In this document: positions 5,877 through 56,639 of the stretch, piece by piece
How the letters are laid out: each line of letters starts with the position of its first letter
Position numbering within the stretch: the first letter of the stretch is position 1
Source of the DNA: Bacteroidota bacterium
GTDB lineage: Bacteria; Bacteroidota; Ignavibacteria; UBA10030; SZUA-254
Reading direction: 5' to 3'
Length of the DNA: 64,000 nucleotides
Assembly (NCBI GenBank): GCA_036522515.1
Contig: DATDFQ010000024.1
Span: 107,173 to 171,172, forward strand
Translations under genes and position numbers: made by a program
The notes under the pieces: generated by a model
What the model was told of the DNA's origin: nothing
Databases searched by the model: none
What the model saw: only the letters and a program-made list of their open reading frames with translations

Positions 5877-7267
5877 CAGACCGACCCCCGCAATTCCGCA
5901 AGATCGTCGCGCCGGATCGCTCCGGTGGCGACAAGGAGCGCCGCGTAGGCCGCCGCCGCCGAAGCGATCAAAAGCCAGAGAGAGACGGATGGAAGCAGAA
6001 CGAGGACCAGGGCCATCCCCGCAGTGGCGATGAGCGCCTTTGCCGCCGATGGAGGAAACCCGACGCGCACGAACGGCGCGAGCCGCCTCGCCATGATGAC
6101 GACCGCGATGGCCTCGGAGCAAACGACCGCGGCTGCCGAACCAACCGGCCCGTAGAGGAACGTAAGCCCGACCGTCAGAAGAAGGTAGATCCCGGCGCTG
6201 ATCATCATGATCCTGCCGTACAGCTTTTCCTGCCCGGAGGCGATCAATCCCGTCGTGTAAACGGTATGAAGAAGGGTGGCGAGAAAGAACCAGACGAGAA
6301 CGCTGAACACTCCCCCCGAGGCGATGAACCGGTCGCCGAAAATAAGCCCGATAATCCGGCTGGCGAGCAACGATCCCCCCGCGCAGAGCGGGAGCGCGAT
6401 GAGGATCATCCACTTGAGGGAACGGTTCAGTATCCGCGAGAGCGCCTCCGGAGATTGGCCGAACGACCGGGCCGAGGCCGGGAGGAGGAGCGTGGAAACG
6501 ACGCGATCGACCACGAGAAGGAATGTCACAAGCTTCCCCGCGGCGCTGTAGATCCCCGCGTCGGCGTTCGTCATCAGGATGCCGAGAACAAGCGGAGGGA
6601 GATTCACGCTCAGGTGAGCCAGAAGGGAGCCCAATCCGAGCGGAAAGGACTTCAACACGAGGGTTTTCCACCCGGAGAAGGCGGGCCTTGCCGGCTCGGC
6701 CGGAAATCGCCTCCGGAAACTCACCCCAAGGTAGGCCGCCGCGGCCGAGTCTCCCAGCACCGCCGCGACCGCCACCAGCAAAAGGTCGGCGGGCGTCCGG
6801 ACGAGCGCCACCACGAGGATGAAATAGGTGGCGGCCGACAGGGTGCGGGCGGCTCCGATGGAGGCCATCTCCTCCTTCCCCTGGAAATACCAGTCGAGAT
6901 TCAGCGCATTGGGAATCAGCGAGAGGCAAAAGAGAAGAATCAATGCGGCGGTCGCGGCGTTCGGGACAGCGAACATGATGCAGCCGACGATTGCAAGGAG
7001 GGCGAGCGAGTTCAGGAGCCGCGCTCCGGCCACGGGGCCGGCAAGCGCCGCGCCTTCGCCCCGCGCGACAGCCCGCGTGCCGAACACGGTGAGGCCCCCC
7101 GCGGCCGTCATGGCGGCGTACGAAAGGACGGTGAACCCCACGTTGATCGCGCCGAAGTCCGAGGGACCGAGCTTCCGCGCGAGGTACGCAAATGTCAGGA
7201 AACCGAAACCCCTGCGACCGATGTCGCTCAGGACGATCGAGAGAGCGTTTCCGGTGTGCTGCTTCAT
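5876..7267 (-). CDS. Polysaccharide flippase (Wzx/MATE-like)
   Basis: 463 aa, about 12-14 hydrophobic helices, with the N-terminal pattern SDIGRRGFGFLTFAYLARKLGPSDFG of the oligosaccharide-flippase branch of the MOP superfamily. Such proteins move lipid-linked glycan units across the inner membrane. The ATG at 7267 overlaps the upstream glycosyltransferase stop (ATGA), and its own stop overlaps the deacetylase-like start, so three products are translationally coupled. The open frame extends upstream to 7510 but that stretch is an arginine/glycine-rich shadow of the glycosyltransferase gene. I find no ligase (WaaL/Wzy) in the same run unless the DUF2723 protein fulfils a related role. Confidence 0.87.
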   Translation of the reverse strand: MKQHTGNALSIVLSDIGRRGFGFLTFAYLARKLGPSDFGAINVGFTVLSYAAMTAAGGLTVFGTRAVARGEGAALAGPVAGARLLNSLALLAIVGCIMFAVPNAATAALILLFCLSLIPNALNLDWYFQGKEEMASIGAARTLSAATYFILVVALVRTPADLLLVAVAAVLGDSAAAAYLGVSFRRRFPAEPARPAFSGWKTLVLKSFPLGLGSLLAHLSVNLPPLVLGILMTNADAGIYSAAGKLVTFLLVVDRVVSTLLLPASARSFGQSPEALSRILNRSLKWMILIALPLCAGGSLLASRIIGLIFGDRFIASGGVFSVLVWFFLATLLHTVYTTGLIASGQEKLYGRIMMISAGIYLLLTVGLTFLYGPVGSAAAVVCSEAIAVVIMARRLAPFVRVGFPPSAAKALIATAGMALVLVLLPSVSLWLLIASAAAAYAALLVATGAIRRDDLAELRGSV

Positions 7268-8253
7268 TGCGCGAACGAATCGAGCAACGTGAGCAATTCG
7301 GCGTCCCGCTTTTCCCGCGGAAACATCGCCACGATCCGCGCCCGCGCCCGGAGGCCCGCATCGCTTGCGGCGCCGATCGCCTTCTGCAGCGCTTCGACAA
7401 GCGATTCGATCTCCCCCGGCGGAACAAGGATTCCGGTCTCTCCCACGGCGGTCCTGATCCCGCCGGTGTCCGAGCCGACCGGCAGGCAGCCGCAGAGCAT
7501 CGCCTCGCAAAGGGTGTTCGGCAACCCCTCCCTCAAGGAGGGCTGGCAGTAGACCTTCGAGCGCTGATAGTACGGGAGAAGCTCGGACCTCGCCATGATC
7601 GGGAGAAAGCGCATGTTGAGGGGAGGCTGGAGTGTCCGCCAGAAGCGCTCGTCGACTCCGATCACGGTGAACGTCATTCCGGGCAGCCGGCGGGCGGCCT
7701 CCACCAGCGAATCGATCCCCTTTACCTTCAGGCGGCTCCGCTCGTTCACGACCGCCACGGTCAAAACCTCCGGCTCCTTCTCACCCGCCGGTTTCCACGC
7801 CATCGGATTGTAGCCCGTCGGAAGGTACCGGATGTTCCCGCCGTCATAGGCGGCAAGCCGGATCGCGTCGTCCTTCAGGCTCGGGTCGACGACCAGGACG
7901 CGGGATGCGCCGCGAAGCGCAAACCGGACGAGCCGCCCCCTCCATGGACTCAACCAGAGGCCGTACTTCAACTCCTCGTCTCCGGCGACATCCACGCCCC
8001 CGACGACGACGACCGATTTCATCCCGAACAACTTCCCGAAGGCCACGCCGATGAACGCATAGACCGAAGCGAACCAGCAAAAAACAACGTCGCTTCCGAA
8101 CGCTCCCACCGCGATGCTCAGCGCGGCTCCGAGCCCGTGCCCGATCTTCTTCCGGACGGTGAAATGCCGTTCGAGGAGATCGATATCGTCCTGGATGAAC
8201 GGAGTGTGGAACGCCGAGATAAAAAGGACTGTCAGGTTCTGGCGGTCTGCCAC
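7264..8253 (-). CDS. GT4-type glycosyltransferase
   Basis: 329 aa GT-B enzyme. The C-terminal donor half is clear: VKGIDSLVEAARRLPGMTFTVIG, then YYQRSKVYCQPSLREGLPNTLCEAMLCGCLPVGSDTGGIRTAVGETGILVPPG, a textbook GT4 ending with the paired Glu in REGLPNTLCEA. The N-terminal half is shorter than usual and lacks a clear glycine loop, having FGMKSVVVVGGVDVAG instead. It sits between another GT4 gene 3 bp upstream and the flippase gene that overlaps its stop, consistent with stepwise assembly of a lipid-linked oligosaccharide. The sugar is not predictable from sequence. Confidence 0.9.
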   Translation of the reverse strand: MADRQNLTVLFISAFHTPFIQDDIDLLERHFTVRKKIGHGLGAALSIAVGAFGSDVVFCWFASVYAFIGVAFGKLFGMKSVVVVGGVDVAGDEELKYGLWLSPWRGRLVRFALRGASRVLVVDPSLKDDAIRLAAYDGGNIRYLPTGYNPMAWKPAGEKEPEVLTVAVVNERSRLKVKGIDSLVEAARRLPGMTFTVIGVDERFWRTLQPPLNMRFLPIMARSELLPYYQRSKVYCQPSLREGLPNTLCEAMLCGCLPVGSDTGGIRTAVGETGILVPPGEIESLVEALQKAIGAASDAGLRARARIVAMFPREKRDAELLTLLDSFAQ

Positions 8254-8256
8254 CGG

Positions 8257-9375
8257 TCAGTTCTCCCTGCGGGCTTGCCGGAGGAGGAGCGCAACCGTCT
8301 GCTCCGCGACACGTTGCCAGTCGAACGTTCCCGCCCAGTCCTGCGCCCCCTTCGCGAGAGCGTTCCTCAGCCGGGAATCTCCGGCGAGGTGGATCATCTG
8401 TTCCGCGAGCACCTCGATATTTCCGTACGGATAGAGGATACCGGTTTCTCCGTCCTTGACGGCGTCCCGGAGGCCCGGAACGTCGCTGGCGATGACGGGA
8501 GTCCCGCAGGCATTCGCTTCGATCACCGTGAGGCCCCATCCCTCCACCGAGGACGGATTCACCAGAAACCAGACCTCCTGCAGAAGCCGCACCTTCTCCT
8601 CTTCGCTCACAAAACCGGTGAACCGGACCGACGCCTCCATGCCGAGCTGCCTCGCGCTTCGCTCGAGATCGCTCCGATCGTCTCCCTCGCCGATGACGAC
8701 CAGCTTCGCATCGGGCATGCCCCGGAGCAGAATCGCGAACGCGCGGAGGAGATGATCGACCGATTTGTACTTTTTCAACCGCCCCATGTAGCCGATGAGC
8801 GGGGTCCCGCTCCTCTGCACTCCGGTGGGGCGAAAGCGCCCGTGATCGACGCAATTGGGAACGATCTCGAGGCCCGACGCGCCGAACCCCCGGTTCAGCA
8901 GCACCTCCTTCGTGCTCGGCGAGACCGCAAAGACGGGAATGCGGCTGCGCCTGTAGAGCGCGACCCCCGCCCGTTCCGCGAGGTAGACATAGAGGGCAAG
9001 CGGAAAAATCGCTTCGCGGAAGATCACGGTGTCGAACAGATGGTGAACGATGAGGGCGAGCGGCTCGCGGACATAGAGCGGGGTGAGGAACGGGATCTTG
9101 TTCAGGTCGTCAATGACCACATCGTATCCCTCGCGCCGGAACCGTTGCCGGTACCGGAGCGGAACGAGAAAATTGAAGAGGTAACGGCCGCCTTCCCGCA
9201 CGACCCTGATCCCGCCGATGGTCTCCTCCTTTGGGGCTCCTTCGAACGAAGAACAGAACAGGGTCACCTCGTGGCCCATCCCGGCCACACGCGAAAATAT
9301 TTCATGGAGGTGGACTTCGGCGCCGCCCGCGAGGGGGTTCCTGATGTCCTGCCAGTTAAAGATCAGGATCTTCAT
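8257..9375 (-). CDS. GT4-type glycosyltransferase
   Basis: 372 aa, full-length GT4 enzyme. The start MKILIFNWQDIRNPLAGGAEVHLHEIF has the donor/acceptor glycine loop (GGAE). The middle has VPNCVDHGRFRP. The C-terminal domain has IGYMGRLKKYKSVDHLLRAF and VNPSSVEGWGLTVIEANACGTPVIASDVPGLRDAV with the catalytic-type EGWGLTVIEA. No signal peptide or membrane helix, so it is cytosolic and probably membrane-associated. First gene of a four-gene overlapping or adjacent block (GT4, GT4, flippase, deacetylase-like). A 103-bp gap with a 16-bp perfect palindrome separates it from the DUF2723 gene. Confidence 0.92.
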   Translation of the reverse strand: MKILIFNWQDIRNPLAGGAEVHLHEIFSRVAGMGHEVTLFCSSFEGAPKEETIGGIRVVREGGRYLFNFLVPLRYRQRFRREGYDVVIDDLNKIPFLTPLYVREPLALIVHHLFDTVIFREAIFPLALYVYLAERAGVALYRRSRIPVFAVSPSTKEVLLNRGFGASGLEIVPNCVDHGRFRPTGVQRSGTPLIGYMGRLKKYKSVDHLLRAFAILLRGMPDAKLVVIGEGDDRSDLERSARQLGMEASVRFTGFVSEEEKVRLLQEVWFLVNPSSVEGWGLTVIEANACGTPVIASDVPGLRDAVKDGETGILYPYGNIEVLAEQMIHLAGDSRLRNALAKGAQDWAGTFDWQRVAEQTVALLLRQARREN

Positions 9376-36834: not shown

Positions 36835-37561
36835 TCTGTTCTCTCCGCAGGTTCGGGTGTGTGTTGTCGTTCGTTTGTACCGCTCGTAAAAAGCTTTTTA
36901 AGAGTAAGGACGAAAACGGCTCTTCGGGGTCCATGATCCGCTCGGGATGCCACTGGACGAGGAGGAAGAAGGGCTTCCGCGCCGAATCCTTCCATTGCAT
37001 CGCCTCGACGATGCCGTCAGCCGCGCGCGCGGCGACTCTCAAGCCCGCGCCGAGCTTGTCGGCCGACTGGTGGTGGCTGGAATTCACCGGACCGCGGGAG
37101 ACCCTCACCGCCTCGCGGAGAAGGCTGTCGCCCTCGACTTCGAGCGGGTGGAAGCTCTCGCGGCCGCCCCGGCCCTTGTGCCCCTTATACCCGGCATCTT
37201 CAAGATCGGGGATCAGGGTGCCTCCGAGATGGACGTTGGCGATCTGCAATCCCCGGCAGATCCCGAGAACCGGCATGTCCGCCTTCAGCGCGTGGTCGAG
37301 GATCCCGCGCTCGAAGTCGTCGCGCTTCCTGTCGACATCCTTGAGCTTCGGATGGTCCGCGCGCCCTCCGAAGATCGCAGGGTCGACGTCCCCTCCTCCG
37401 GTCAGCACGATGCCGTCGCACTGATCGGCCGAGCCGGCATCGTCCCGGAGGTAGGAAAGCACTTTGCATTCGACGGGAATCGTTCCGGTCCGCAGCCACG
37501 CGAGATACCTCTGAAACTTCGCCGGATCGCCCATCGTGTCGGTAACACCGATTCTCATCAT
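36824..37561 (-). CDS. Class-I glutamine amidotransferase, PuuD-like (peptidase C26)
   Basis: 245 aa. The active-site elbow GICRGLQ gives Cys101, and the later WHPE supplies the His and Glu of the triad. GGGDVDP and [11 protein letters not shown] match gamma-glutamyl-gamma-aminobutyrate hydrolase PuuD and relatives. The substrate is probably a gamma-glutamyl amine or peptide, but the context (between lpxK and ppdK) does not help. Two successive ATG codons at 37561 and 37558; the first overlaps the lpxK stop as ATGA. The stop overlaps ppdK by 11 nt. Confidence 0.85.
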
Positions 37562-38592
37562 GTTGTCCCTCCGACGGTCCGCTCGAGAAGCGAGTGGAGC
37601 AATTCCCTTCCCTCTACGATCTCCGTCCTGATCCTCACGAAATAGACCGGCATCCCCTTAAGCGGCGATTCGCTCTCCATTCCACCGAGGCGAACGGCAT
37701 CTTTCTCGGTGGTCACCATCATCGCGGCGCCCGACCGGTCATACCTACCCTTGATGCGCTGCAGATCATCCGCCGGGTAGGGGTGATGATCGGGGTATGT
37801 CATGGAATCGCGCATGACGGCGCCCATTTCTTTCAACATCTCCGTGAACCTGGATGGATTCGCGATTCCGGAAAAGGCAAAAACAGATTTTCCGCGCAGA
37901 TCCTCAGTCGCGAGATCTTTCCCCCCGAAGAGAGGGGAAACTCTGTCGGGCACAAATCGAACTCTGACTTCCGGGGCGGCGGAGTATCTGACCAGCCCGT
38001 TCTGTCCGGCGCTCCGGCCGGCCGGACCCGAGACGACCAGAAGCCCCGCACGGCGGAGGGACGAGAGCGGCTCGCGCCGCGATCCCGCCGGGAGCATCGG
38101 CGTGGCGGCCGGGGATTCACCGATCATAACGATATCGAGGTCCCGCCCGATTCCCCTGTGCTGAAAACCGTCGTCGAGGAGGATGACGTCGGCATGATAC
38201 CGGTCGACAGCGATCCTCGCGGACTTCGCCCGGCTCTCGTCCGAGATCACGACCGCGCCGGGAAAACGCCTGGCGATCTGATAGGGCTCGTCCCCCGAAC
38301 GCTCCGCCGTCTCCCGGACCGTGTCGCCGTCGGAGACGACAACCGTCCCGCGCGTCGTGCGCAGGTATCCTCTGCTCAGCACAGCCACTTTTTTCCGTTC
38401 CCCCATGAAATATTGAACAAGGTATTCGACAAAGGGCGTTTTTCCGTTTCCGCCCGCGGTCAGGTTGCCCACGGAAATGACGGGCACGCCGGCCCGCACG
38501 GCGCCGAAGAGGCGCGCGTCATAGCATCTGTTTCTCAACCAGACGAGGGAGCCGTAGAGCCATGACGCCGGAAGCAGAAACCGCTCCAGCAT
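37558..38592 (-). CDS. lpxK: Tetraacyldisaccharide 4'-kinase
   Basis: 344 aa. It phosphorylates lipid A disaccharide at the 4' position on the inner membrane. The P-loop is VISVGNLTAGGNGKTPFVEYL near residue 40, preceded by the usual WLYGSLVWLRNRCYDARLF hydrophobic start. DVILLDDGFQHRGIGRDLDIVMI contains the DDGFQH signature of LpxK. It lies 2 bp after lpxB and overlaps the amidotransferase gene. The presence of both genes shows the organism makes LPS or lipid A. Confidence 0.96.
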   Translation of the reverse strand: MLERFLLPASWLYGSLVWLRNRCYDARLFGAVRAGVPVISVGNLTAGGNGKTPFVEYLVQYFMGERKKVAVLSRGYLRTTRGTVVVSDGDTVRETAERSGDEPYQIARRFPGAVVISDESRAKSARIAVDRYHADVILLDDGFQHRGIGRDLDIVMIGESPAATPMLPAGSRREPLSSLRRAGLLVVSGPAGRSAGQNGLVRYSAAPEVRVRFVPDRVSPLFGGKDLATEDLRGKSVFAFSGIANPSRFTEMLKEMGAVMRDSMTYPDHHPYPADDLQRIKGRYDRSGAAMMVTTEKDAVRLGGMESESPLKGMPVYFVRIRTEIVEGRELLHSLLERTVGGTT

Positions 38593-38594
38593 CT

Positions 38595-39731
38595 TCAGCT
38601 CGCCTGCGATGCGACCGCAAGAACCGCAGCGGCGGCCCTTCCCGACGCCCCGGGCGTGCCGAGCCTTTCCTTCACCGTTCCGAGGCGGCGCGAGATCTCC
38701 TTCAGGCGAGCCGGATCGCCGAGGAGCGACGCCGCCTCGCGCGCGAGGAGCGGCGCGGTCGCCCGGCCCTGGAGGAGCTCCGGCACCACCTGCTCGCCGG
38801 CCACGATATTGACCAGACCGATGTTCCGGATCCGGATCAGGAGCCGGACGATCAGGTAGGTCATGATCGAGGTCTTGTACACGACAATCATCGGCGTCCC
38901 GTAATACGCGGTTTCGAGCGTCGCCGTGCCGGAAGTCACCAGCACCAGGTCCGAATTTTTCATCACGTCATAGGTCGCGTCCCGGATCAGCGCCACCGGG
39001 AGGTCGTCGCGCAGGAACGACTTCAGAAAATCGAGCTCGAGCACCGAGGAAACGGCGACGGCGAGCTGGACACCGAGCTCCCGGTGCAGGATGCGCGCCG
39101 CCCCGAGCATCACCGGAAACATCCGCTCGATCTCCTGTCTCCTGCTTCCGGGGGCGAGTCCGACGATCTTTTTCTCCGGATCAAACCCGTACCGCTTGCA
39201 GAACTCGGGACGCCCCTGGGGCTCGGTGAAGACGTCGAGCAGCGGGTGCCCCGTGAATTCGACGTCGATTCCATTGGCCCGGTAGAGATCCACTTCAAAC
39301 GGGAACACGACGAGCATTTTGTCGATCAACCCCTTCATTTTTTTCACCCGTCCCGGGTTCCAGGCCCACACCTGGGGGCTGATATAATAGACGATCTTCA
39401 TGCCGAGCTTTCTGGCGACCCGGGCGAATCGCAGGTTGAAGCCCGGATAGTCGATCAGGACAAGGACCGACGGCCTGCGTGCCTTCACGATCGCCTCGAG
39501 CGTCCGCTCGACGGACCGGAGAAGCGGAAGATGCTGGATGACTTCCAGGAACCCCATAACCGAGAGTTCCCGGATATGATAGATCAGGTCCATCCCCGCC
39601 GCGCGCATCTTGTCGCCCCCGATTCCGAAAATCTCGCATCCGGGGCTTCGCCGTTTCAACTCGCGGACGAGGCCGGAGCCGTGCAGGTCGCCCGACGGTT
39701 CCCCCGAGACAATCATGATGCGCATCGTCAT
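38595..39731 (-). CDS. lpxB: Lipid-A-disaccharide synthase
   Basis: 378 aa GT19 glycosyltransferase that joins UDP-diacylglucosamine and lipid X. SGEPSGDLHGSGLVRELKRR at the N-terminus, GFLEVIQHLPLL, IDYPGFNLRFARVARKLGMKIVYYISPQVWAWNPGRVKKM and the C-terminal LVTSGTATLETAYYGTPMIVVYK are the family signatures. lpxK follows. The gene upstream codes an ICMT-like methyltransferase. Confidence 0.97.
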   Translation of the reverse strand: MTMRIMIVSGEPSGDLHGSGLVRELKRRSPGCEIFGIGGDKMRAAGMDLIYHIRELSVMGFLEVIQHLPLLRSVERTLEAIVKARRPSVLVLIDYPGFNLRFARVARKLGMKIVYYISPQVWAWNPGRVKKMKGLIDKMLVVFPFEVDLYRANGIDVEFTGHPLLDVFTEPQGRPEFCKRYGFDPEKKIVGLAPGSRRQEIERMFPVMLGAARILHRELGVQLAVAVSSVLELDFLKSFLRDDLPVALIRDATYDVMKNSDLVLVTSGTATLETAYYGTPMIVVYKTSIMTYLIVRLLIRIRNIGLVNIVAGEQVVPELLQGRATAPLLAREAASLLGDPARLKEISRRLGTVKERLGTPGASGRAAAAVLAVASQAS

Positions 39732-39767
39732 CGGCCGCGCCGGCCGTGCGTGGAGCGGTTCACTCCG

Positions 39768-40355
39768 CTATCCCCGTACGCGCCAGATCGCGCAGAGAAG
39801 CAGGGTGAGGATCGCAATCGCCTGCAGCGTCCTTTTTTCAGAACGCAATCCCCTCCGGACGTCCGTCTCCGGCTGGGGATTCGAGCCCGCCGGATATTTC
39901 TTCAACAGGGGAAGGAACCTCGGAACCGACGCGCAGTAGCGGATAAATTCGTCCTTGAACGTCTTGAGCAGGTATTCCTCTTCGAGGCTCACGATCAGGG
40001 AATATTGCCAGAAGAAATAGACCACCGCGGCGACAGAGAGCCAGAACGCGTTCGACATGATTCCGAGTCCGAGATACATGAGCATGTTCCCCAGATAGAG
40101 AGGGTTTCGGACGTGGGCGAACGGGCCCCGCGTAATGAGATACGTTCCCCCGACCGGCCCGGTGGTGCGCGTTTCGCTGCCGGCGATCGAGACGCCCCAG
40201 AGCCGCAACATCTCTCCCGCGGCGACCACCGCAAACCCCGCCAGCATGCCCGCCGGCGCCGGCCGGGCGAGGACGATCATCGCGACGAGGAACGGGATCG
40301 GAGTATAGCTGCGATACTGGAATAATCGTTGTCGTAGATCCATTGGTTTGGGCAA
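39768..40355 (-). CDS. ICMT/PEMT-like membrane methyltransferase
   Basis: 195 aa with about five hydrophobic helices. The SAM-binding C-terminal signature is GPFAHVRNPLYLGNMLMYLGLGIMSN (RNPxYxG) followed by the EEEYLLKTFKDEFIRYCASVPRFLP pair typical of isoprenylcysteine carboxyl methyltransferase and phospholipid N-methyltransferase families. The substrate is unknown: it may be a lipid, a quinone or a protein C-terminus. It stands just upstream of lpxB in an operon of envelope genes, so a membrane lipid is plausible. Confidence 0.82.
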   Translation of the reverse strand: MPKPMDLRQRLFQYRSYTPIPFLVAMIVLARPAPAGMLAGFAVVAAGEMLRLWGVSIAGSETRTTGPVGGTYLITRGPFAHVRNPLYLGNMLMYLGLGIMSNAFWLSVAAVVYFFWQYSLIVSLEEEYLLKTFKDEFIRYCASVPRFLPLLKKYPAGSNPQPETDVRRGLRSEKRTLQAIAILTLLLCAIWRVRG

Positions 40356-40361
40356 ACCGTC

Positions 40362-41102
40362 TCATCCGCCGAGGTAGACTTCGCAACGGGCCAGCTCCGC
40401 GCGGCGGCGTTTCCGGAGCCGCACGCCGCCGACCGGGTCCTTGCGGTCGATCATTTTCGCCAGCCGCTTCGTGATATCCCCGAACGTCCGGTAGGACACG
40501 AACGGGATGCCGGATGTCCGGCAGTACTCCATCAGCTCGTCTTTCGCAAAAACGACGTCGGCGTATTGCGCGGGACACCGGTCGGAATATCCCTCGCCGA
40601 CATAGACGATGATGTCCTCGTCCGCCGAGAGGGTCAGGATATGATTCCTCTTGCAACACGCGCAGCGCTCGCAGTTTTCATCCCGGTAGGGAAACGAGGG
40701 CCGGAACCGCACGCGGGAACTCCCGTCGACCGGCACAAGTTCCAGCGTGTTCGCGAAGAACGGGACGCGGTCGAGGCCATTGTTGTTGAGGATCCGGGCG
40801 ATGTAGTACCCCATTCCGTCGCTGAGGATCGTGCAACCGATCCCTCTCTCCTCGCAGAACTTCACAAATCCGGCAAACGTGGAATCGATCTCCTGGCCGT
40901 CGAGAAACGCGTCGAGCGATTGCGGTTCGACTTCCCCGCAGGCTTCGCACTCGCGGCGGAAACATTCCGTCGCTGTGAGGGTCCCCGCGCGGTACTGTTC
41001 GACCAGCTCGAGGCACGTGCGGCCTCCGAAGGTCTCGAATAACAGGTCTCCGACGTCCTTGCGCGAGATCGTACCGTCAAAATCGATGAACGTCCGGATC
41101 AT
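40362..41102 (-). CDS. HAD-IB phosphatase, MtnX-like
   Basis: 246 aa from the ATG at 41102; the frame has a weak TTG 11 codons earlier. HAD motif I is FIDFDGTIS, motif II lies in GCTILSDGMGYYIARIL, and motif IV is IVYVGEGYSDRCPAQYADVVFAK. This places it with MtnX/phosphoserine-phosphatase-like enzymes. A cysteine cluster CERCACC lies between the halves, possibly a zinc site. The substrate may be a methionine-salvage phosphosugar, but no other mtn gene is nearby, so the role is open. Confidence 0.82.
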   Translation of the reverse strand: MIRTFIDFDGTISRKDVGDLLFETFGGRTCLELVEQYRAGTLTATECFRRECEACGEVEPQSLDAFLDGQEIDSTFAGFVKFCEERGIGCTILSDGMGYYIARILNNNGLDRVPFFANTLELVPVDGSSRVRFRPSFPYRDENCERCACCKRNHILTLSADEDIIVYVGEGYSDRCPAQYADVVFAKDELMEYCRTSGIPFVSYRTFGDITKRLAKMIDRKDPVGGVRLRKRRRAELARCEVYLGG

Positions 41103-41135
41103 GAAGGCCTTGAGGAGAAGAACACAATACAACAA

Positions 41136-41197: not shown

Positions 41198-44100
41198 CTA
41201 ACCGGAGACTGCCGCGGACCGCAGGCGGGCTTCCTCGTTGAAACGGACGGTGACAATCTTGGATATCCCCTCTTCTTCCATCGTGACGCCGTAGAGCGCG
41301 CTCGCCGCTTCCATCGTCCGCTTGTTATGCGTGACCACGATGAACTGCGTGTTGTTGGAGAATTTCTTGAGAATGCGCGTGTACCGGTCGATGTTGGAAT
41401 CGTCGAGCGGCGCGTCGACCTCGTCGAGAATGCAGAACGGGCTCGGTTTCACAAGGTAGATCGCGAAGAGAAGGGCGATGGCCGTCAGCGTCTTTTCACC
41501 GCCGGAAAGCAGATCGATCGAAGTGGGCCGCTTGCCCCGGGGCTTCGCGATGATCTCGATGTTCGCCTCCAGGGGGTCCACTCCCTCCTCGATCCTGAGG
41601 TCGCACTCGTCCCCTTCCTGGAACAGCTCCTTGAAGGTCGTGATGAAGTTGTCCCGGATTTTCGAGAACGTCTCGGAGAACTTGTTCTGCGCCGTCGTGT
41701 TGATCTCGTCGATCGTGCTGAGGAGCGTCTTCTCGGCCTCGAGAAGGTCGTCCCGCTGGCCGGTGAGGAAGGCCAGCCGTTCGCTCTCGCCTTTGAACTC
41801 GTCGAACGCCGCAAAGTTGATCGCCCCGAGGACCCGGATGCGGTCCTTGTGGCCCTTGATGTCGTCGCGGAGCTGCGCGAAGTCGACCCACTCGTCCTCG
41901 GGGTACGGCTTCAGGGTGAGTTCGAGCTCGAATTCCTCCTTCGCGCGCCCCTTCAGGTGCTCGATATTCGATTTCAGCTCGGAGATTTTCATCTCGAGCT
42001 CGTGGGCCGCCGCCACCGAGTCTTCGTGCATCCGGCGCTCGTCCTTCATCTTGAGCTCGATCTGGTGAAGCTCGCTGCGCTTGGAGGAGTGCGCCTCCTC
42101 GATCCCCCGGACTTCCTCTTCCAGCCGCTGGAAGCTCTGCCGGAACACCGCCAGCTCCTCCGTCTGGGAGGCGATCTGGGATCCGAGCCGCGTGATTTCC
42201 TCGCGGGCGCGCGTGATTTCCTCGTCGCGGCGCAGGAGGGTGACCCGGATGTCCTCCGACCTGGCGTCGCCCCGCTCGATGTCCCGTTCGGTGTTGCGGA
42301 TGTCGCCCTGGAGCGTCACCACCTTGATTTCAAGCTCGTTCACGCTCCTGGTCAGGTCGGTCCACTCGGCCTCCAGTTTCTCCAGCTCGCGCGCGGCAGT
42401 GGCTGCCATCCCTTCGTGCTCCGTTTTCCTCTGTTCGCTCGCCGCCAGATCTCCGGTGGCCGCCTCATGCTTCAAACGAAGCTTGACGATTTCATCCTGG
42501 AGCAGGCCCGTCTCCGACTGATTTCGCCCCACCGCGTCTCTGGCGCGCCCCTTTTCAAATTCGATCTGGGCGATCCGCATCTCGATCGCGGTCATGTCCT
42601 TCTCAATTTTCTTCACCGCCGCCACGAACGATTTCACCTCGAGCGCCTCGGCGGAAGCGCTCTTCGCCTTGATTTCTTCCACGATGCGCTCCAGACGGAC
42701 GCCGGTTTCCTTCATCCCTTCGCCGAGCTCGGTGATCTGCTCTTTCTTGCCGATCACTCCCCCCTCGTCGAACCGCTTGCTCCCGCCCCGGATCGTCCCC
42801 GTCGTCGAAACGACCTGCCCGTCGAGCGTCACGCAGCGCACCCCGGAAAAGTTTTTGACGGTTCCGGCGACCGCGTCGAGCGTTCCCACCAGCGCCACGT
42901 CCTGGAGGAGAAAATTGATCAGAGGACGGTAGGCGGGGTCGCAGTGCACGACATCCTGGGCCCAGACGCATTGAGCGGCGTCCTTCCTCCTTTTGCGGCT
43001 GCTCCGGCCTATGCGCCGGGAAACCCTGGGCACCCAATCGAGGCAGATGAAGGTCGCTTTCCCCTTGTCCTGGCGCCGGAGCTCCTCGAGCGCGGCGTAC
43101 CCGTCCTTGACGTCCCGCACGACGAGCATGTGCGCCGCCTCGCCGAGAGCCGCCTCCACCGCCACGCGGTATCGCTCTTCCGCATGCACGAGGTCAGCGA
43201 CCGTCGTAAGATTCTTCACCACCCACTTGTGGCTGCCGAGCAGGAAGCGCGTCCCCTCGGAATACCCCTCGTTGCTTTCGACCATTTTCCGGAGGAAATC
43301 GATCCGGGACGCCTTTCGCTCGATTTCGTTCCTGAGCGCGTCGGACTGTTTCTGGAGGCGGTCGACTTCGTCGTTCAGCTCCTTCTTCGCCTTCTCGCGC
43401 TCCATCAGCTTCATCTCCGCCTCGACGAACTGCCTCCTCAACTCGCGGTCCTCCGCGGTGAGCTGGGCGACCCGTTCGGCGTTATTCAGGATGTCGGTCT
43501 CGTAGAGGGCGTTCTCCTCGTTCGCGCGGTCGATCCTTCCCTGCAGGTTGTGGATCCGCTCCGTGATACGGTCCCGCTCGCCCCGTTTCTCGACGAGCTC
43601 GTGCGCGAGCCCGAGGATCGAGACCCTGTACGCTTCGACCTCGGATTTTTTCGCCTCCACCGCGCGCCCCTGCGTCTGGCGGTTCTCCTTCATTTCCAGA
43701 AAATGCTGTTCCGACGCAGCGAGCTCGACACGAAGCTGCTCGACCGACGCGTGGAGGGTCGTCTGTTCCGCGCCGAGGCGCTCCTGCTGTCCCTGCAGGC
43801 CCGTCTTCTCCTGTTCGTACCGCTCGATGTTCGATCCGAGCGAATTCGAACGCTCGTTCGCGACGAGAATCCTCTCTTCGGCGCGGTGGATCGTCTCGAA
43901 CTGGGCGGCGGTATCGCGCTGCTTCAGCTGGAGCTGCTCCTCGATCTCCCGGAGCGAGCTTCCGAGGAGGTCGGCCCGCTCTTCCTGGGACTGGAGCGTT
44001 TCGTGAATGCTCGACTTGTCGGTCTTCGCGGAGGCGAAGCGCTCTTCGAGCGGCACAAGCTTGCCCTGGAGGTGCGCATACTCGCGCTCGAGGAGATCGA

Positions 44101-44779
44101 CTTCGAGCCGCTTCAGTTCGGAAGAGACCTCGTTGTACTGCTCGGCCCGTTTCGCCTGGCGCTCGAGCGAGTTGACGGTTTTCTGGACTTCCTTGACGAT
44201 GTCGCTGACGCGCATCAGATCCTGCTGGACGCTCTCGAGCTTGCGCATCGCGGCCTTGCGGCGGAACTTGTATTTGGTCACTCCGGCCGCCTCTTCGAAG
44301 AGCCGCCGGCGCTCGTCGGTCTTGTCGCTGAGAATCGTCTCCACCATTTTCAGCTCGATCACCGAGTACGCGTCGCTCCCCATGCCGGTGTCCATGAACA
44401 GGTCCAGAATATCCTTGAGCCGGCAGGGGACCTTGTTCAGAAGGTATTCGCTCTCGCCGGAACGGAAGACCCTGCGCGTGACGGTCACCTCGGAGTACTC
44501 GGTCGGGAGGATCCCCTTGGTGTTCTCGATGGAAAGCGAGACTTCCGCGAGGCCGAGCGGTTTCCGGCTCTTTGTCCCGTTGAAGATCACGTCTTCCATC
44601 TTGTCGCTCCGGAGCGTGCTGTAGCGCTGCTCGCCGAGCGCCCACCGTATGGCGTCCACGATGTTCGTCTTCCCGCAGCCGTTCGGACCCACGATCGCGG
44701 TCACGCCTGTGTCGAAATTCAGGTTGATCCGCTGGGCGAACGACTTGAACCCGATGACTTCTATTTTGGAGAGGTACAT
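41198..44779 (-). CDS. smc: Chromosome partition protein SMC
   Basis: 1193 aa. The ATPase head starts MYLSKIEVIGFKSFAQ with Walker A GPNGCGKT at residues 31-38. Long coiled coils (heptads rich in Glu, Arg, Leu) surround a hinge near residues 500-680 (VADLVHAEERYRVAVEAALG, TTGTIRGGS). The C-terminal head has the ABC signature LLSGGEKTLTAIALLFAI and Walker B CILDEVDAPLDDSN. It organises chromosomes by loop extrusion, with ScpA and ScpB not present in this window. It follows the GH2-like gene by 9 nt. Confidence 0.97.
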   Translation of the reverse strand: MYLSKIEVIGFKSFAQRINLNFDTGVTAIVGPNGCGKTNIVDAIRWALGEQRYSTLRSDKMEDVIFNGTKSRKPLGLAEVSLSIENTKGILPTEYSEVTVTRRVFRSGESEYLLNKVPCRLKDILDLFMDTGMGSDAYSVIELKMVETILSDKTDERRRLFEEAAGVTKYKFRRKAAMRKLESVQQDLMRVSDIVKEVQKTVNSLERQAKRAEQYNEVSSELKRLEVDLLEREYAHLQGKLVPLEERFASAKTDKSSIHETLQSQEERADLLGSSLREIEEQLQLKQRDTAAQFETIHRAEERILVANERSNSLGSNIERYEQEKTGLQGQQERLGAEQTTLHASVEQLRVELAASEQHFLEMKENRQTQGRAVEAKKSEVEAYRVSILGLAHELVEKRGERDRITERIHNLQGRIDRANEENALYETDILNNAERVAQLTAEDRELRRQFVEAEMKLMEREKAKKELNDEVDRLQKQSDALRNEIERKASRIDFLRKMVESNEGYSEGTRFLLGSHKWVVKNLTTVADLVHAEERYRVAVEAALGEAAHMLVVRDVKDGYAALEELRRQDKGKATFICLDWVPRVSRRIGRSSRKRRKDAAQCVWAQDVVHCDPAYRPLINFLLQDVALVGTLDAVAGTVKNFSGVRCVTLDGQVVSTTGTIRGGSKRFDEGGVIGKKEQITELGEGMKETGVRLERIVEEIKAKSASAEALEVKSFVAAVKKIEKDMTAIEMRIAQIEFEKGRARDAVGRNQSETGLLQDEIVKLRLKHEAATGDLAASEQRKTEHEGMAATAARELEKLEAEWTDLTRSVNELEIKVVTLQGDIRNTERDIERGDARSEDIRVTLLRRDEEITRAREEITRLGSQIASQTEELAVFRQSFQRLEEEVRGIEEAHSSKRSELHQIELKMKDERRMHEDSVAAAHELEMKISELKSNIEHLKGRAKEEFELELTLKPYPEDEWVDFAQLRDDIKGHKDRIRVLGAINFAAFDEFKGESERLAFLTGQRDDLLEAEKTLLSTIDEINTTAQNKFSETFSKIRDNFITTFKELFQEGDECDLRIEEGVDPLEANIEIIAKPRGKRPTSIDLLSGGEKTLTAIALLFAIYLVKPSPFCILDEVDAPLDDSNIDRYTRILKKFSNNTQFIVVTHNKRTMEAASALYGVTMEEEGISKIVTVRFNEEARLRSAAVSG

Positions 44780-44788
44780 CGCCGGTCC

Positions 44789-47389
44789 CTAGGCCGAATG
44801 TTTCATGGATTGGACGACATGCTTCAGATAGAGCGACGTGGATTGCGAATAGTCGATGTAGCTGTAGAGCGCCGCCGTCGCCACGATGACGAGGAGCAGG
44901 CCGGTGGCGTAGACTTTCAGAGGGAAGACGTCGTACACGATCGAGATCCCTTTCAAGAGCCGCATGAAGACCCAGAGGCTCACGAGTCCCACCAGCACGC
45001 CGACGGGCATGAGATAGGTGTCGGTTTCCATCGAGAGCCGGTAGAGGACCATTGCGACGGGGATAAAGATGACGAACGGGAGCATCGACCACATCGTGAT
45101 CGAAAAACAATGGTAAAAATAGACCCGGGCACGCGCCGTGATCGAGAGGATGCGCACCAGAAGGCTGAGGGAGCAGAGTCCGAAGAAGATCCCTCCCGAC
45201 GCCACCATGATGAACTTCACCGGGCTCCAGACGAGGCGCACCAGCCATTCCTTCGGGCCGTCCGAGAGGAACTGGCTCAGCACATTGTCGAAGACCACGT
45301 TGTCGCGGTAGTGCGAGCAGAGGCTCGAAAGGATCGTCGCCCACGTCACGGAGACGATCACCGCGAGAAAAATCGTATGGCCGTAGCTCAGGATCCGCTC
45401 GTCACGGACGTCCGCGAAAAAATTGTACGTCCGGAAGATGGATCGGTTGACCGATTCCCTGAAATGGCGGTTGCTGTTGTAGAGAAAAAAGAACGAGATC
45501 AGCGCGAAGATGCCGGCCAGGACATAGATGATGGGGGCGCTGGAGGAGAAGTTGCCGACCGGGAGCGCCTGCACTTTTTCCCCGTTAAAGACCGTCCGGG
45601 CGATGTCGAACGAGGTCCGCTTTTCCCGGTCGTAGGCGACAAGCCCCATGCTGTGCAGGTACGGGTCGTGCGAATGGGTGGATAGCGCGGGGCGGTCCGA
45701 CCGCCAGTCGTTGAAGGAGGCAAAAACCCCGCCGGCGATCTTTGTCGAGCTGACTGCTTCAAAACACTGGACGACAAGCCGTGCCTGGGACTCCATCGAG
45801 AGCGGGTCGCTGTACCCGTTGTGATTTCCGGGCTCGATGTCGCGGCTGTACTGGGTCACGATGATCGGCTTCTCCGGGTTCCTGGATTTCCAATCCTTCA
45901 GCTCTTCACGAAAGTCCTTCACGTCCCCGTCGGTGTGATTCACGACCATCATGTCGACGGATTCCCAGCAGGGGCTCTGCGACGGCTGGTTGGCAAAATA
46001 AACGAGCCGTGAATCGATCGCCTTGATGATATTGCGCATGCCGTTGACATAATCGCAAGCGCCCGACGCCGGCGTTTCGAATCCGTCTCCGATTCCCCAT
46101 GCGAGGACCGAGCTGTGGCGCTTGTCCCTCCAGACCATTTCCCGGATATAGGTCGCGGCGAGGTCTTCGTAATAGTCCTTGGCGAGAATCCCGGAGGGCA
46201 CCCCTCCAAGGGGGATCTCCTCCATCGCGAGAAGCCCATACCGGTCGCACAGGTTCAGCATATATGGATGCGGCGGATACGGGAAACGTATCAGGTTGGC
46301 GCCGAGCGCCTTGATCAACGCGATATCGCGTTCGAGCGATTCGTAGGTCATCGCTCCCCCGAACGACGCGTGGTCTTCCTGCCAGAGGACCCCCTTGAGG
46401 GAGACGAGGCTCTCGTTCACGAAGAGCCGCCCTCCGACCCACTTCAGGTCCCTCATGCCGACATCGATGTCATACTCATCCAGGACCGTGACCTCTTTGT
46501 TCGCGAGGCGGACGATCTCGCACTTGAAAACATACAGGTCGGGGGATTCCGGCGACCATGTTTTCGGGGAGGGGAGAACCACGTCGGCGTTCACCGTGAG
46601 CGACTTGTTCGCCGGCGAGGCGAACGTGTTGATCCCGCTGCGCCCGGTCATTTCGCCGGTGAGCTTGTCGTAGACTTCGACCTGCACGCCGAGATACTGG
46701 CCCGGAGCGAACACGGTGTTGGATCCCCTGTCGGAGATCTCCGCCTGAACCGAGACCTTGCGGTTCCTGTTCGGCTCTGAGGGGGGATACGTCACTGCGA
46801 CATCATCGATGGAGAGTCGGGGAGCGCCGAGGATATAGAGATCGCGGAGGATCCCGCCGTAGGTTCTCCAACCGCCCACCGGCTGCCTGAGGGGTAGAGT
46901 AGTCGCGGGGGTCAACTCGTTGTCGACGGAGACCCTGATCGAATTATCCTTGCCGACCTGGAGAGTATTCGGAGGAATCGCGAGCACGAAGGACGAATAG
47001 CCGCCCATGTGCCGGCCGATGAAGTTGCCGTTGATGAAGATTTCACACTGATAGTTGATCCCGTAGGCCACGAGGCTGAACGCGTACTTGTCGAGCTGCT
47101 CTGGCTTCACGTCGAAAGACCTCTGGAAGGTGACTTTTCCCGTGAAGTCGTAGGCGCTCGGGACGGAGACGGTATTCCAGCTCTTTCCGTCAAGCGTGTA
47201 CTCCCAGGAGCCCGAAAGGTCGAGTTTTTCGCGTGTGGGAACGTCGGAGTACATCGCGGCGTCCGCGCCGGTACGTGTGGGCTGGCCATTTTGGAAAAAC
47301 CTGATGCCTGAAACGGTAGGTTGTGAGGTTCCAGGAGATGGAATAAGAAAAGCGAAAAGCGCATAGAGGAAAAATCTGCGCAATATCAA
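44789..47389 (-). CDS. GH2-fold protein with six-helix membrane domain, predicted inactive
   Basis: About 866 aa. The start is uncertain: the promoter at 47520-47548 rules out anything upstream, leaving TTG at 47389 (gives an ideal signal peptide) or GTG at 47449. After MILRRFFLYALFAFLIPSPGTSQ come a GH2 sugar-binding jelly-roll (about 55-190, LSGSWEYTLDG, AYGINYQCEIFING), an Ig-like domain (190-305) and a TIM-barrel-like domain (310-600). Where GH2 enzymes have GNE the sequence is WGIGDGFE (residues 431-438), and the nucleophile motif (T/S)EY is VTQY (511-514). Both catalytic glutamates are thus missing. Residues 618-845 form about six membrane helices. Likely a carbohydrate-binding or sensing pseudoenzyme facing the periplasm. 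It precedes smc by 9 nt. Confidence 0.72.
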   Translation of the reverse strand: MILRRFFLYALFAFLIPSPGTSQPTVSGIRFFQNGQPTRTGADAAMYSDVPTREKLDLSGSWEYTLDGKSWNTVSVPSAYDFTGKVTFQRSFDVKPEQLDKYAFSLVAYGINYQCEIFINGNFIGRHMGGYSSFVLAIPPNTLQVGKDNSIRVSVDNELTPATTLPLRQPVGGWRTYGGILRDLYILGAPRLSIDDVAVTYPPSEPNRNRKVSVQAEISDRGSNTVFAPGQYLGVQVEVYDKLTGEMTGRSGINTFASPANKSLTVNADVVLPSPKTWSPESPDLYVFKCEIVRLANKEVTVLDEYDIDVGMRDLKWVGGRLFVNESLVSLKGVLWQEDHASFGGAMTYESLERDIALIKALGANLIRFPYPPHPYMLNLCDRYGLLAMEEIPLGGVPSGILAKDYYEDLAATYIREMVWRDKRHSSVLAWGIGDGFETPASGACDYVNGMRNIIKAIDSRLVYFANQPSQSPCWESVDMMVVNHTDGDVKDFREELKDWKSRNPEKPIIVTQYSRDIEPGNHNGYSDPLSMESQARLVVQCFEAVSSTKIAGGVFASFNDWRSDRPALSTHSHDPYLHSMGLVAYDREKRTSFDIARTVFNGEKVQALPVGNFSSSAPIIYVLAGIFALISFFFLYNSNRHFRESVNRSIFRTYNFFADVRDERILSYGHTIFLAVIVSVTWATILSSLCSHYRDNVVFDNVLSQFLSDGPKEWLVRLVWSPVKFIMVASGGIFFGLCSLSLLVRILSITARARVYFYHCFSITMWSMLPFVIFIPVAMVLYRLSMETDTYLMPVGVLVGLVSLWVFMRLLKGISIVYDVFPLKVYATGLLLVIVATAALYSYIDYSQSTSLYLKHVVQSMKHSA

Positions 47390-47666: not shown

Positions 47667-48440
47667 TTACTGGTGAGTTGCCTCGACTCCCGCCTGGACG
47701 ATGGCCATGAAACTCTCTGTCTTCAGGCTCGCCCCGCCGATCAAACCTCCGTCGATATCGGACTGTGAAAAGAGGTCTAAAGCGTTGCTATTGTTGACGC
47801 TACCGCCATATTGGATGATAGTTTTCTCCGCCACGGCCCAGGAAAACAACTGTCCGATCGTTTTGCGGATAAGCTTGTGGGCGGCGTTTGCCTGGTCTGG
47901 AGTTGCGGTCTTCCCCGTCCCGATCGCCCAGACCGGCTCGTAGGCCACCACGACCTTCCCCATGTCGGCGGAGGAGAGTTCGTGGAGGCCGCCTTTGATC
48001 TGGGTCGAGATGACCTGATCGGCGAGGCCTTTCTCCCGCTCTTCAAGCGTCTCGCCGACGCACATGATGGGAAGGAGCCCGGCGGCGAGGGCCTTCTTGA
48101 CCTTGGCGTTCACCAGCTCGTCGTTCTCCTTGAAGTACTGACGGCGTTCCGAGTGACCGAGTATGACATATTCGCAACCGGTCGCGAGGAGCATTTTTGC
48201 GGAGATCTCTCCGGTGTAGGCGCCGTCGTCGAACTTCGACATGTTCTGGGCTCCGAGCTTCATCGGAGAATCCTTCAACAGGGTCTTCGCGATGACGAGC
48301 GAGGTGAAGGGAGGGCAGACGACGATGTCGATCTCGTTCCGGAAGTCTTTCAGGCGCGTCTTCAGTTCGTTGATGAGCGCGGCGGTTTCGTGGATGTCCT
48401 TGTTCATCTTCCAATTACCGGCGACAATTTTCTTTCTCAT
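47667..48440 (-). CDS. tpiA: Triose-phosphate isomerase
   Basis: 257 aa, interconverts DHAP and glyceraldehyde-3-phosphate. NWKMN gives catalytic Lys11; GHSERRQYF gives the His electrophile; AYEPVWAIGTGKTATP gives the catalytic Glu and flexible loop; GGSVN and GLIGGASL bind phosphate. Complete and normal length. A hairpin with T-tract sits 28 nt before its ATG, so its own promoter is not obvious. Confidence 0.97.
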   Translation of the reverse strand: MRKKIVAGNWKMNKDIHETAALINELKTRLKDFRNEIDIVVCPPFTSLVIAKTLLKDSPMKLGAQNMSKFDDGAYTGEISAKMLLATGCEYVILGHSERRQYFKENDELVNAKVKKALAAGLLPIMCVGETLEEREKGLADQVISTQIKGGLHELSSADMGKVVVAYEPVWAIGTGKTATPDQANAAHKLIRKTIGQLFSWAVAEKTIIQYGGSVNNSNALDLFSQSDIDGGLIGGASLKTESFMAIVQAGVEATHQ

Positions 48441-53726: not shown

Positions 53727-56639
53727 TTAACGCGCCGCGTTCTTAAGAGGCACCATGGCCCTGATAATGGCGTCGTGCACCGCAGGCCTTACCTTCGCGA
53801 TTTTATTGTTGGCGCGCGTCGGATAGACGCGGTTTGTCAGAAAAATCGTCACGACTTTGCGATCCGGGTCAGCCCAGACAGAGGTCCCCGTGAACCCGGT
53901 ATGCCCGAATGAGTGCTCGCTGAAGAGCGTGCCCGCCGTGCTGTAGCCGTTCACAGTCTTCGTATCCCACCCCAGCGCCCTCGTGCTCTTTTCGCTCTGC
54001 TTCGTGGTGAAGAGCGCGATCGTTTCGGGCTTCAGGTACCGTTTCCCTCCATATTTCCCGCCGTTCGTCAGCATCTGCATCAGGACCGCAAGATCGGAGG
54101 CGGTGGAAAAGAGGCCGGCGTGCCCGGACACTCCCCCGAGAATATAGGCGTTTTCGTCATGCACGACCCCCCACACTTGATGCTTACGGAAGAGCCCGTC
54201 GAATTCGGTCGGGGCGATGTTGCTTCGGAGCGAGGAGTCCGGTCTGAACATGGTGCGCGTCATCCCGAGGGGCGCGAAGAAGACCGAGTCGGCGTAATTA
54301 TCGAGCGTCGTGCCCGAGATTCGTTCGATCACCTTTCCAAGGACGATGAAATCGAAATCACTGTAGACGGTGGAATCGCCTGTAGGATAGATCAATTCAG
54401 TCTGATAGACTGAGTCGAGCGCCTGGGCAGCGGAGGAACAGGTCAGGAAAAGCCGCTTGAAGGGAGGAAGCCCGCCGTTGTGCACGAGAAGATTTCGAAT
54501 TCTGATGCTCTCTTTTCCGTGATTGCCGAACTCCGGGAGATACCTGACGACCGAATCGTCAAGGCCGATCCTGCCTTCATCGTACAGCCTCATCAAGGCT
54601 GAGGTGGTGGCGACGACTTTCGTCATCGATGCGAGGTCGTACATCGTGCTCGCGTTCACGGGCGGACTGGCGCTGCCGTATTCCAGAGAGCCGAACGACT
54701 TATTGTAGACAACAGCCCCGTCTCTCGAAACAAGAAGCTGGCCTCCGGGAAATGCCGAGTCGGCGATGGCTCTGGTGAGAATGGTGTCGAGGAGCGAAAG
54801 GCTGTCCCGCTGGAAGCCGGCGCTCTCCGGCAGGTCGTACCGCAGGACTTCCATTCCGAGATCGATCCCGCTTCCGTACGAGTACCTCCCCGGAATCGTG
54901 ACAGGAAGCTTTCCCCGGGAAGGGATTTCTCCAAACAAGACCTCGGCGATAGCTTCCGTCGACGGCTCGCAATCAGAGTAGGAACAAATTGAGGCGGACG
55001 CCTCCGGAAATGCGGCGAGGATATAGGGGCTCCCCATGGCGAGGACGACGCTCGGCTTTTTTAATGCTAAAACGGACTGCACGCAGCCCACAAGCGCGGG
55101 GGTGAGCCCGAATTGTCCGGCGCCCGAGCGCGCCTTCGAAAATACCGTGCAGAGAACGAGGTCGGCGTGGTTCGCCATGATCCGCACCGTGTCAAAATCG
55201 AGCTCGTTGCTCGAGGGGTCGATCAGGACGGTCCGGAGATTCGAGTAGCGCTTTTTCAATTGTGCGTTAAAGTAATCCCCGACCGGCTCGTTCGGCCACT
55301 GGTTCCCCGGGCGGTTGATTTCCGTGCGGACCTGCCCGGCATCCGAAACGGTGATGTTCAGGATTCTTTTCTTCCCGAAACGGGCTACGGGGAGGACCGA
55401 ATCGTTCTTCAGGACCGTGATCGATTTCCGCGCGATCTGCTTCGCGAGCAGGAGGTGTTCGGGGGTTCCCACGGCCTCCGGAATTTTCTCCAGGTCCACC
55501 ACCCGTTTATCCGCAAGGCCGGCCGACCACTTATATCCAAGCAGTTTCCGGACCGACTGGTTGATCCGTTCCTCCGGTATCCTGCCCGAGCGGACTGCGT
55601 TCGCCACCGCCTCCACCGCGCGGTCTTCGTCCGTGGGAATCAGGATCACGTCGACGCCCGCCTCCACGGCCCTCACCGCCGAGGAGTCGGCTCCGAACCC
55701 GTGCACCAGCGCGCCCATGTCCATCGCGTCTGTGACGACAAGGCCGTTGAACTGAAGCTCGCCCTCCAGGAGCCCGTGAACGATGGAGCGGGAGAGTGTC
55801 GCAGGAAGTGTATGCTGTTGTTCGACCGCGGGAACTTCAAGGTGGGCGATCATGATGGCCGAGATTCCCCCCCGAATGAGCTGCCGGAAGGGAGAGAGTT
55901 CGACGCTGTCCATCCTGCCGCGTGTCACGTTGATCAGGGGAAGGTCGAGATGCGAATCGACCTGCGTGTCGCCGTGGCCGGGGAAATGCTTGCCGGTCGC
56001 CATCACTCCGGTCGATTGCAACCCCTGCGAAAAGGCGGTCGCCATCCCGCCGACGAGCAAGGGGTCCTCGCCGAACGAGCGCGTGTTGATCACGGGGTTT
56101 TCGGGATTGACGTTGACGTCAGCCACAGGGGCGAAGTCGATCCGGACTCCGATGGACCGGGCCTCGACTCCGATCGCTTTACCCAACGCGCGCGCCAGCG
56201 AGGTATCCCTGGTCGCCCCGATCGCCATCGCCTCCGGGAACCGGGTGCCCCGCCGGATGCGCATTGCCGATCCCCACTCAAAGTCGGATGCGATCAGGAG
56301 GGGAACGTCGGCCAGCTTCTGCAGGCGGTTTACGAGGGCCGCGGTTTCGTAGACGTCGCCCTGGAAGAAAATGAGGCCGCCCACTTTCCGCGCCCTCACC
56401 AGGCGCTCGAGCCGGCGGTATTCGTCGCTTCCCCCGCTGTAATAATAGCCGTAGGAGCGCGACATGACCATCTGAGCGACCTTCTGGTCGAGCGTGAGGC
56501 GTTTCAGCGTCCCTTCAACCCATTCGGTGCGCGACCTGTTGTCCGGCCCCGGGGGTCCGCCTGCGCAACCGGCCAGCCAGAGAATGGAGTAAACGAGGAG
56601 AGCGTACCAACAGACCCGGTGTAGCTTAACGAAAGGCAT
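53727..56639 (-). CDS. NagZ-like GH3 beta-N-acetylglucosaminidase fused to a serine beta-lactamase-like domain
   Basis: 970 aa lipoprotein (lipobox LAGC, Cys25). The GH3 barrel (residues about 45-380) has the NagZ signature KHFPGHGDTQVDSH at 217-230 and nucleophile Asp304 in VVTDAMDMG. A GH3 C-terminal alpha/beta domain follows (about 400-600). The last 340 residues are a class-C/peptidase-like domain with Ser671-x-x-Lys674 (SMTK), the usual PDxxFDLASxTKV wording being MYDLASMTKV, and YSDFDFIVLGKVIE and HSFGHTGFTGTSVW later. The fusion is known in Bacteroidota-type bacteria. It probably cleaves GlcNAc-anhydroMurNAc or related muropeptides outside the inner membrane. Its start overlaps an amino-sugar kinase gene by 14 nt. 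Confidence 0.92.
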   Translation of the reverse strand: MPFVKLHRVCWYALLVYSILWLAGCAGGPPGPDNRSRTEWVEGTLKRLTLDQKVAQMVMSRSYGYYYSGGSDEYRRLERLVRARKVGGLIFFQGDVYETAALVNRLQKLADVPLLIASDFEWGSAMRIRRGTRFPEAMAIGATRDTSLARALGKAIGVEARSIGVRIDFAPVADVNVNPENPVINTRSFGEDPLLVGGMATAFSQGLQSTGVMATGKHFPGHGDTQVDSHLDLPLINVTRGRMDSVELSPFRQLIRGGISAIMIAHLEVPAVEQQHTLPATLSRSIVHGLLEGELQFNGLVVTDAMDMGALVHGFGADSSAVRAVEAGVDVILIPTDEDRAVEAVANAVRSGRIPEERINQSVRKLLGYKWSAGLADKRVVDLEKIPEAVGTPEHLLLAKQIARKSITVLKNDSVLPVARFGKKRILNITVSDAGQVRTEINRPGNQWPNEPVGDYFNAQLKKRYSNLRTVLIDPSSNELDFDTVRIMANHADLVLCTVFSKARSGAGQFGLTPALVGCVQSVLALKKPSVVLAMGSPYILAAFPEASASICSYSDCEPSTEAIAEVLFGEIPSRGKLPVTIPGRYSYGSGIDLGMEVLRYDLPESAGFQRDSLSLLDTILTRAIADSAFPGGQLLVSRDGAVVYNKSFGSLEYGSASPPVNASTMYDLASMTKVVATTSALMRLYDEGRIGLDDSVVRYLPEFGNHGKESIRIRNLLVHNGGLPPFKRLFLTCSSAAQALDSVYQTELIYPTGDSTVYSDFDFIVLGKVIERISGTTLDNYADSVFFAPLGMTRTMFRPDSSLRSNIAPTEFDGLFRKHQVWGVVHDENAYILGGVSGHAGLFSTASDLAVLMQMLTNGGKYGGKRYLKPETIALFTTKQSEKSTRALGWDTKTVNGYSTAGTLFSEHSFGHTGFTGTSVWADPDRKVVTIFLTNRVYPTRANNKIAKVRPAVHDAIIRAMVPLKNAAR

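Follow-up and report, generated by a model that had tools for sequence, protein, structure and literature searches.

A Bacteroidota membrane protein family with a GH2 fold lacking the catalytic glutamate pair, encoded beside smc or ftsZ

The gene upstream of smc and its domains

The DNA analysed is a 64,000-nt stretch, hereafter the window, taken from a Bacteroidota bacterium assigned to SZUA-254 in GTDB (assembly GCA_036522515.1, contig DATDFQ010000024.1, positions 107,173 to 171,172 of the forward strand). Directly before smc lies a gene whose product joins the domains of a GH2 glycosidase to a membrane domain of six helices. The features considered here are as follows, with the evidence for each in brackets.

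44789..47389, minus strand: whole gene, pseudo-GH2 and Yip1-like membrane protein, 866 aa, start codon uncertain (open reading frame)
47324..47389, minus strand: signal peptide, about residues 1-22 (hydropathy)
46820..47272, minus strand: jelly roll, the GH2 N-terminal domain, about residues 40-190 (Pfam PF02837 and PDB profile match)
46451..46810, minus strand: Ig-like GH2 middle domain, residues 194-313 (Pfam PF00703)
45587..46432, minus strand: GH2 TIM barrel without either catalytic glutamate, residues 320-601 (Pfam PF02836 and PDB profile match)
46082..46084, minus strand: acid/base position, where Gly436 replaces Glu (profile alignments to 6ncy, 8dhe, 5uj6 and 6xxw; family column)
45851..45853, minus strand: nucleophile position, where Gln513 replaces Glu (profile alignments to PDB enzymes; family column)
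44855..45535, minus strand: six transmembrane helices, Yip1-like from residue about 655 (hydropathy; Pfam)
45374..45475, minus strand: predicted cytoplasmic loop 1, residues 639-672 (topology prediction; family conservation)
41198..44779, minus strand: smc, directly downstream, the conserved partner gene (Pfam SMC_N and hinge)
47667..48440, minus strand: tpiA (triosephosphate isomerase), upstream neighbour common to part of the family (locus comparison)

The reading frame stays open upstream of position 47389, opening at 47548 or beyond, and the TTG at 47389 is a plausible start codon for the 866-aa protein. The stop codon occupies positions 44789-44791 and the ATG of smc, whose product carries SMC_N and hinge domains in Pfam, lies at 44779. 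An earlier note on this DNA, made from the letters alone, had given the spacing between the two genes as 9 nt; this value is correct, and the adjacency recurs throughout the family.

Pfam recognizes the TIM barrel (E = 1.2e-27), the Ig-like domain (3.7e-8) and the jelly roll (3.6e-7) of the window protein; its C-terminal part gives a Yip1 match that stays below the threshold. Furthermore, when a profile was made from 54 homologues, GH2 enzymes of known structure were matched over residues about 50-610 (approximately 550 positions), the lowest E-value being 1.4e-70. The order of jelly roll, Ig-like domain and barrel that had been read from the letters is thus recovered, all three domains being found by Pfam and by the PDB profile match. 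The GH2 fold is assigned here by sequence; an AlphaFold2 model was built from three sequences only, had a mean pLDDT of 46, and so was left unused. The protein scores far below every cut-off of the NCBIfam equivalog models. Annotation pipelines probably label such genes beta-galactosidase or glucuronidase, which would hide a conserved membrane family.

Occurrence was surveyed within the phylum. Full-length orthologues are present in 59 of 60 relatives, and orthologues occur in 83 of 296 genomes from across the phylum. The family is nearly universal in one class and can be traced through much of the phylum. In one genome (G208) where the gene was not found, smc was likewise not found, and an assembly gap is more probable than a true absence. 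Close pairs give dN/dS values of 0.04-0.14 in the GH2 half and the membrane half alike, indicating that the gene is not decaying; these values, with the deep conservation of the family, rule out a decaying pseudogene. The gene is one member of an ancient family that is apparently undescribed: a literature search, with most subscription papers lying outside it, gave no account of the family. At one locus (L150 of genome G100, 5329-8640) the gene is broken into overlapping frames of 569, 424 and 201 aa, which may be due to frameshifts during decay of the gene or to errors in the assembly.

Loss of the catalytic pair

In all four printed PDB alignments (6ncy, 8dhe, 5uj6 and 6xxw), the acid/base Glu of the enzymes, which ends the motif ..NE, aligns with G436 in WGIGDG, and the nucleophile Glu of their T/S-E-F/Y-G motif aligns with Q513 in VTQY. 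These alignments took the place of a GH2 paralogue from the same genome, which was tried as a catalytic control and aligned over its N-terminal domains only. Glu438 had been named as a residue that might occupy the acid/base position in a shifted register; this can be ruled out, as G436 holds that position in each of the four alignments. Both catalytic glutamates are therefore missing, as the earlier note had claimed, and the trait extends to the whole family. Among 93 distinct homologues, Glu occurs at the acid/base column alone in 22 and at the nucleophile column alone in 18, and no homologue keeps both. Homologues retaining the pair, which the earlier note had set as grounds for refuting its claim, were thus not found.

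It had also been proposed to ask whether the DG and Q replacements are themselves conserved. The answer is divided: the pair of glutamates is never retained, but the columns drift. Ranked by variability within the barrel, G436 stands at the 41st percentile and Q513 at the 79th, with the equivalents of the active-site His and Tyr of GH2 enzymes at the 82nd and 98th. Judged by sequence, the GH2 fold is retained while the catalytic pair is gone, and the catalytic and sugar-contacting positions are not conserved in the family.

The family thus resembles beta-glucuronidases and beta-galactosidases (6ncy, 8dhe and 5uj6) in domain order and in profile similarity, and differs from them in lacking the acid/base and nucleophile pair, in its unconserved His and Tyr equivalents and in the six-helix membrane domain appended to the fold. 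A cryptic enzyme working through other acidic residues might be suspected from the well conserved D479, D561 and E391 of the barrel and from those members that retain one of the two glutamates. However, by motif reading these three residues align with positions of active GH2 enzymes outside the catalytic pair, both catalytic columns drift without the two glutamates ever occurring together, and shorter relatives described below have neither. We regard this explanation as highly improbable.

The membrane domain as the constant part

When hydropathy was averaged over 93 homologues, six helices were resolved in addition to the signal peptide, at residues 619-638, 673-692, 727-746, 764-783, 791-810 and 826-845, and the charges of the loops between them alternate as expected from the positive-inside rule. 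The C-terminal membrane-spanning part and its fusion to the GH2 fold are as had been noticed at first reading, and the fusion is family-wide. The predicted topology places the GH2 module in the periplasm and loop 1 in the cytoplasm. No other stretch of the family is as conserved as this loop, which has the consensus NxxRRFRExxxRALxRPYNFFADIRDQRIxSxxHT over residues 639-672. Its mean column entropy is 1.49, compared with 2.26 for the membrane domain, 2.34 for the jelly roll, 2.40 for the barrel and 2.84 for the Ig-like domain.

When the C-terminal part is queried alone, 28 of 54 members match Yip1 (PF04893) at E < 0.1, with a best value of 1.2e-9. The window protein scores 22.7 bits against a curated cut-off of 28.6, and its match covers residues 655-840, corresponding to TM2-TM6 and fitting the roughly five-helix membrane bundle of Yip1 proteins. 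PDB hits of the membrane domain to subunit 2 of cytochrome oxidase (E about 0.01-0.09) were set aside as noise from helix composition. The Yip1 family includes YknW of Bacillus subtilis, which modulates the assembly of an ABC transporter membrane complex (PMC4887032). The resemblance lies in the C-terminal helices. In contrast to Yip1 proteins, members of the present family have an additional first helix, a cytoplasmic loop of high conservation and, in the periplasm, a large pseudo-enzyme, and no ABC transporter gene adjoins theirs. For the membrane part, YknW is the nearest precedent in function.

A query with the membrane domain alone exposed distant relatives of about 460-680 aa that consist of a signal peptide, a TIM barrel and the membrane domain, with neither jelly roll nor Ig-like domain. 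These short forms yield no meaningful Pfam match of their own and have no Glu at either catalytic position. Nevertheless, profile-profile comparison joins them to the long form with 100% probability (E = 3.3e-42, 479 aligned columns, window residues 332-831), and the barrel and membrane domain are homologous in the two forms.

A more extreme reduction occurs in one genome (G216, family f15), where a 294-aa protein (locus L149) comprises the membrane domain with loop 1 and the GH2 module is absent. This protein scores 33.3 bits against Yip1, above the Pfam cut-off of 28.6, which the longer window protein does not reach, and its gene lies about 125 nt before smc. Because this variant nests within the long forms in the tree, we infer that its GH2 module was lost secondarily. 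In its sister genome (G258, also f15) smc is present and the family gene was found neither beside smc nor elsewhere in the genome, so that the family is not universally essential and can be lost. What the short forms and the GH2-less variant both keep, and hence the constant part of the family, is the membrane domain, including the conserved loop on its cytoplasmic side. These variants point to the part of the protein worth testing first.

These forms bear on the possibility that the protein is a glycan sensor or lectin, in which a dead GH2 module would bind a sugar of the envelope or of the environment, with the membrane domain relaying the signal. Dead glycosidases serve elsewhere as lectins or co-receptors, and the GH2 fold of the long form, jelly roll included, is intact and under purifying selection. 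However, the catalytic and sugar-contact columns are variable, the short form dispenses with jelly roll and Ig-like domain, one variant dispenses with the entire GH2 module and still lies beside smc, and neither a signalling domain nor a gene for a partner regulator was found beside the family gene. The analysis thus did not bear out the sugar-binding sensor offered by the earlier note. A pure sugar sensor or enzyme does not fit a family in which the membrane domain is the constant part, and we consider a sensor or lectin rather unlikely.

Linkage to smc and ftsZ and candidate functions

Among 97 long-form genomes checked, 16-kb neighbourhoods being combined with small flanks of further genomes, smc directly follows the family gene in 79. 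Within 98 mapped loci it lies immediately downstream in 57, representing 18 families, and small loci add 23 further genomes in which smc is present. In the 16-kb neighbourhoods smc is downstream on the same strand and usually no more than 30 nt away. The surroundings commonly include tpiA upstream, and a HAD phosphatase, a methyltransferase, lpxB and lpxK downstream. Even where the rest of this operon differs partly or wholly (f21, f24, f39 and f51), the pair of genes is kept. Tree distances for the GH2 module and Smc correlate with r = 0.85, and none of 2000 permutations reached this value, which is as expected from vertical co-inheritance. In the window itself, 37558-41135 carries a HAD phosphatase gene, an isoprenylcysteine-methyltransferase-like gene, lpxB and lpxK downstream of smc, an unusual smc-lipid A run that is common to the smc loci of most relatives.

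Long forms without smc linkage constitute a single clade (f8, f9, f11, f12, f19 and f20; node support 0.986), and the linkage was therefore apparently lost about once. In five loci of this clade (L059, L062, L088, L118 and L150) a divergent upstream gene encodes a protein of about 2200 aa that, judged by eye, is SprA-like (type IX secretion), and four of them (L062, L088, L118 and L150) have an HrcA-like gene downstream, likewise judged by eye.

In the short forms a different partner appears. Instead of preceding smc, the gene follows ftsZ immediately in 12 loci, each from a different genome (families f40, f44, f50 and f54), within a murG-murC-ftsQ-ftsA-ftsZ cluster whose FtsA and FtsZ products were confirmed by Pfam; two more short-form loci (f23) have ftsZ at 0.93 kb. 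In f29 the short-form gene lies before smc and overlaps or abuts it. Since linkage to smc is present on both sides of the deepest split, the simplest interpretation of the tree, rooted by midpoint and with the placement of f29 inside the short clade unsupported, is that this linkage is ancestral and moved to ftsZ in one branch. The gene adjoins neither smc nor ftsZ in 18 long-form and 18 short-form genomes.

Conserved adjacency to smc or ftsZ is the genomic linkage looked for in a division or segregation factor, and its independent occurrence at both genes makes the family a testable candidate for a lineage-specific factor of this type. From gene neighbourhood, we tentatively suggest that the protein is non-catalytic and acts in the inner membrane as a scaffold or assembly factor, serving the segregation of chromosomes, division or the synthesis of the septal envelope, a role that seems to us quite possible. 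The signal peptide would send the GH2-derived module to the periplasm, TM1 would return the chain to the cytoplasmic side, and the Yip1-like helix bundle would present the strongly conserved basic loop in the cytoplasm, as predicted from topology and homology. Membrane domain and loop would form the working core, and the dead TIM barrel may serve in the periplasm as a surface on which a glycan or a protein partner docks.

A bolder version of this scaffold makes the protein a trans-envelope cell-cycle component whose cytoplasmic loop engages the Smc or FtsZ machinery while the dead glycosidase module recognizes or docks to glycan of the septal wall. If true, it would couple the state of the chromosome or Z-ring to the envelope; we think it doubtful. 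The genes smc and ftsZ are stable, well-expressed loci able to carry unrelated genes, and the linkage could arise from a shared promoter alone. Gene neighbourhood does not prove function.

In an alternative, smc and ftsZ are no more than convenient genomic hosts and the protein helps to assemble an export or envelope-biogenesis machine, be it for LPS, for type IX secretion or of the ABC type. The activity of YknW, the many genomes in which lpxB and lpxK belong to the gene run and the SprA-sized divergent gene in the f9 and f11 lineages are consistent with this proposal. However, the smc link is kept where lpx genes are not nearby (f24 and f39) and is found again in f29 with the short form, and the SprA-type neighbour is confined to a few loci; an export or envelope role of this kind is unlikely in our judgement. 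The assembly role raised by the earlier note is still plausible and fits the Yip1 precedent of YknW (PMC4887032).

Two further observations concern glycan-related genes. In most short-form loci (L151-L156, L159, L162, L164, L195, L196, L208, L209 and L212-L214) a convergent GT8-like glycosyltransferase gene immediately follows the short-form gene, and this pair is likewise conserved. Elsewhere in the window, at 53727-56639, a 970-aa protein reads by eye as the fusion of a GH3 glycosidase with a serine hydrolase domain resembling beta-lactamases.
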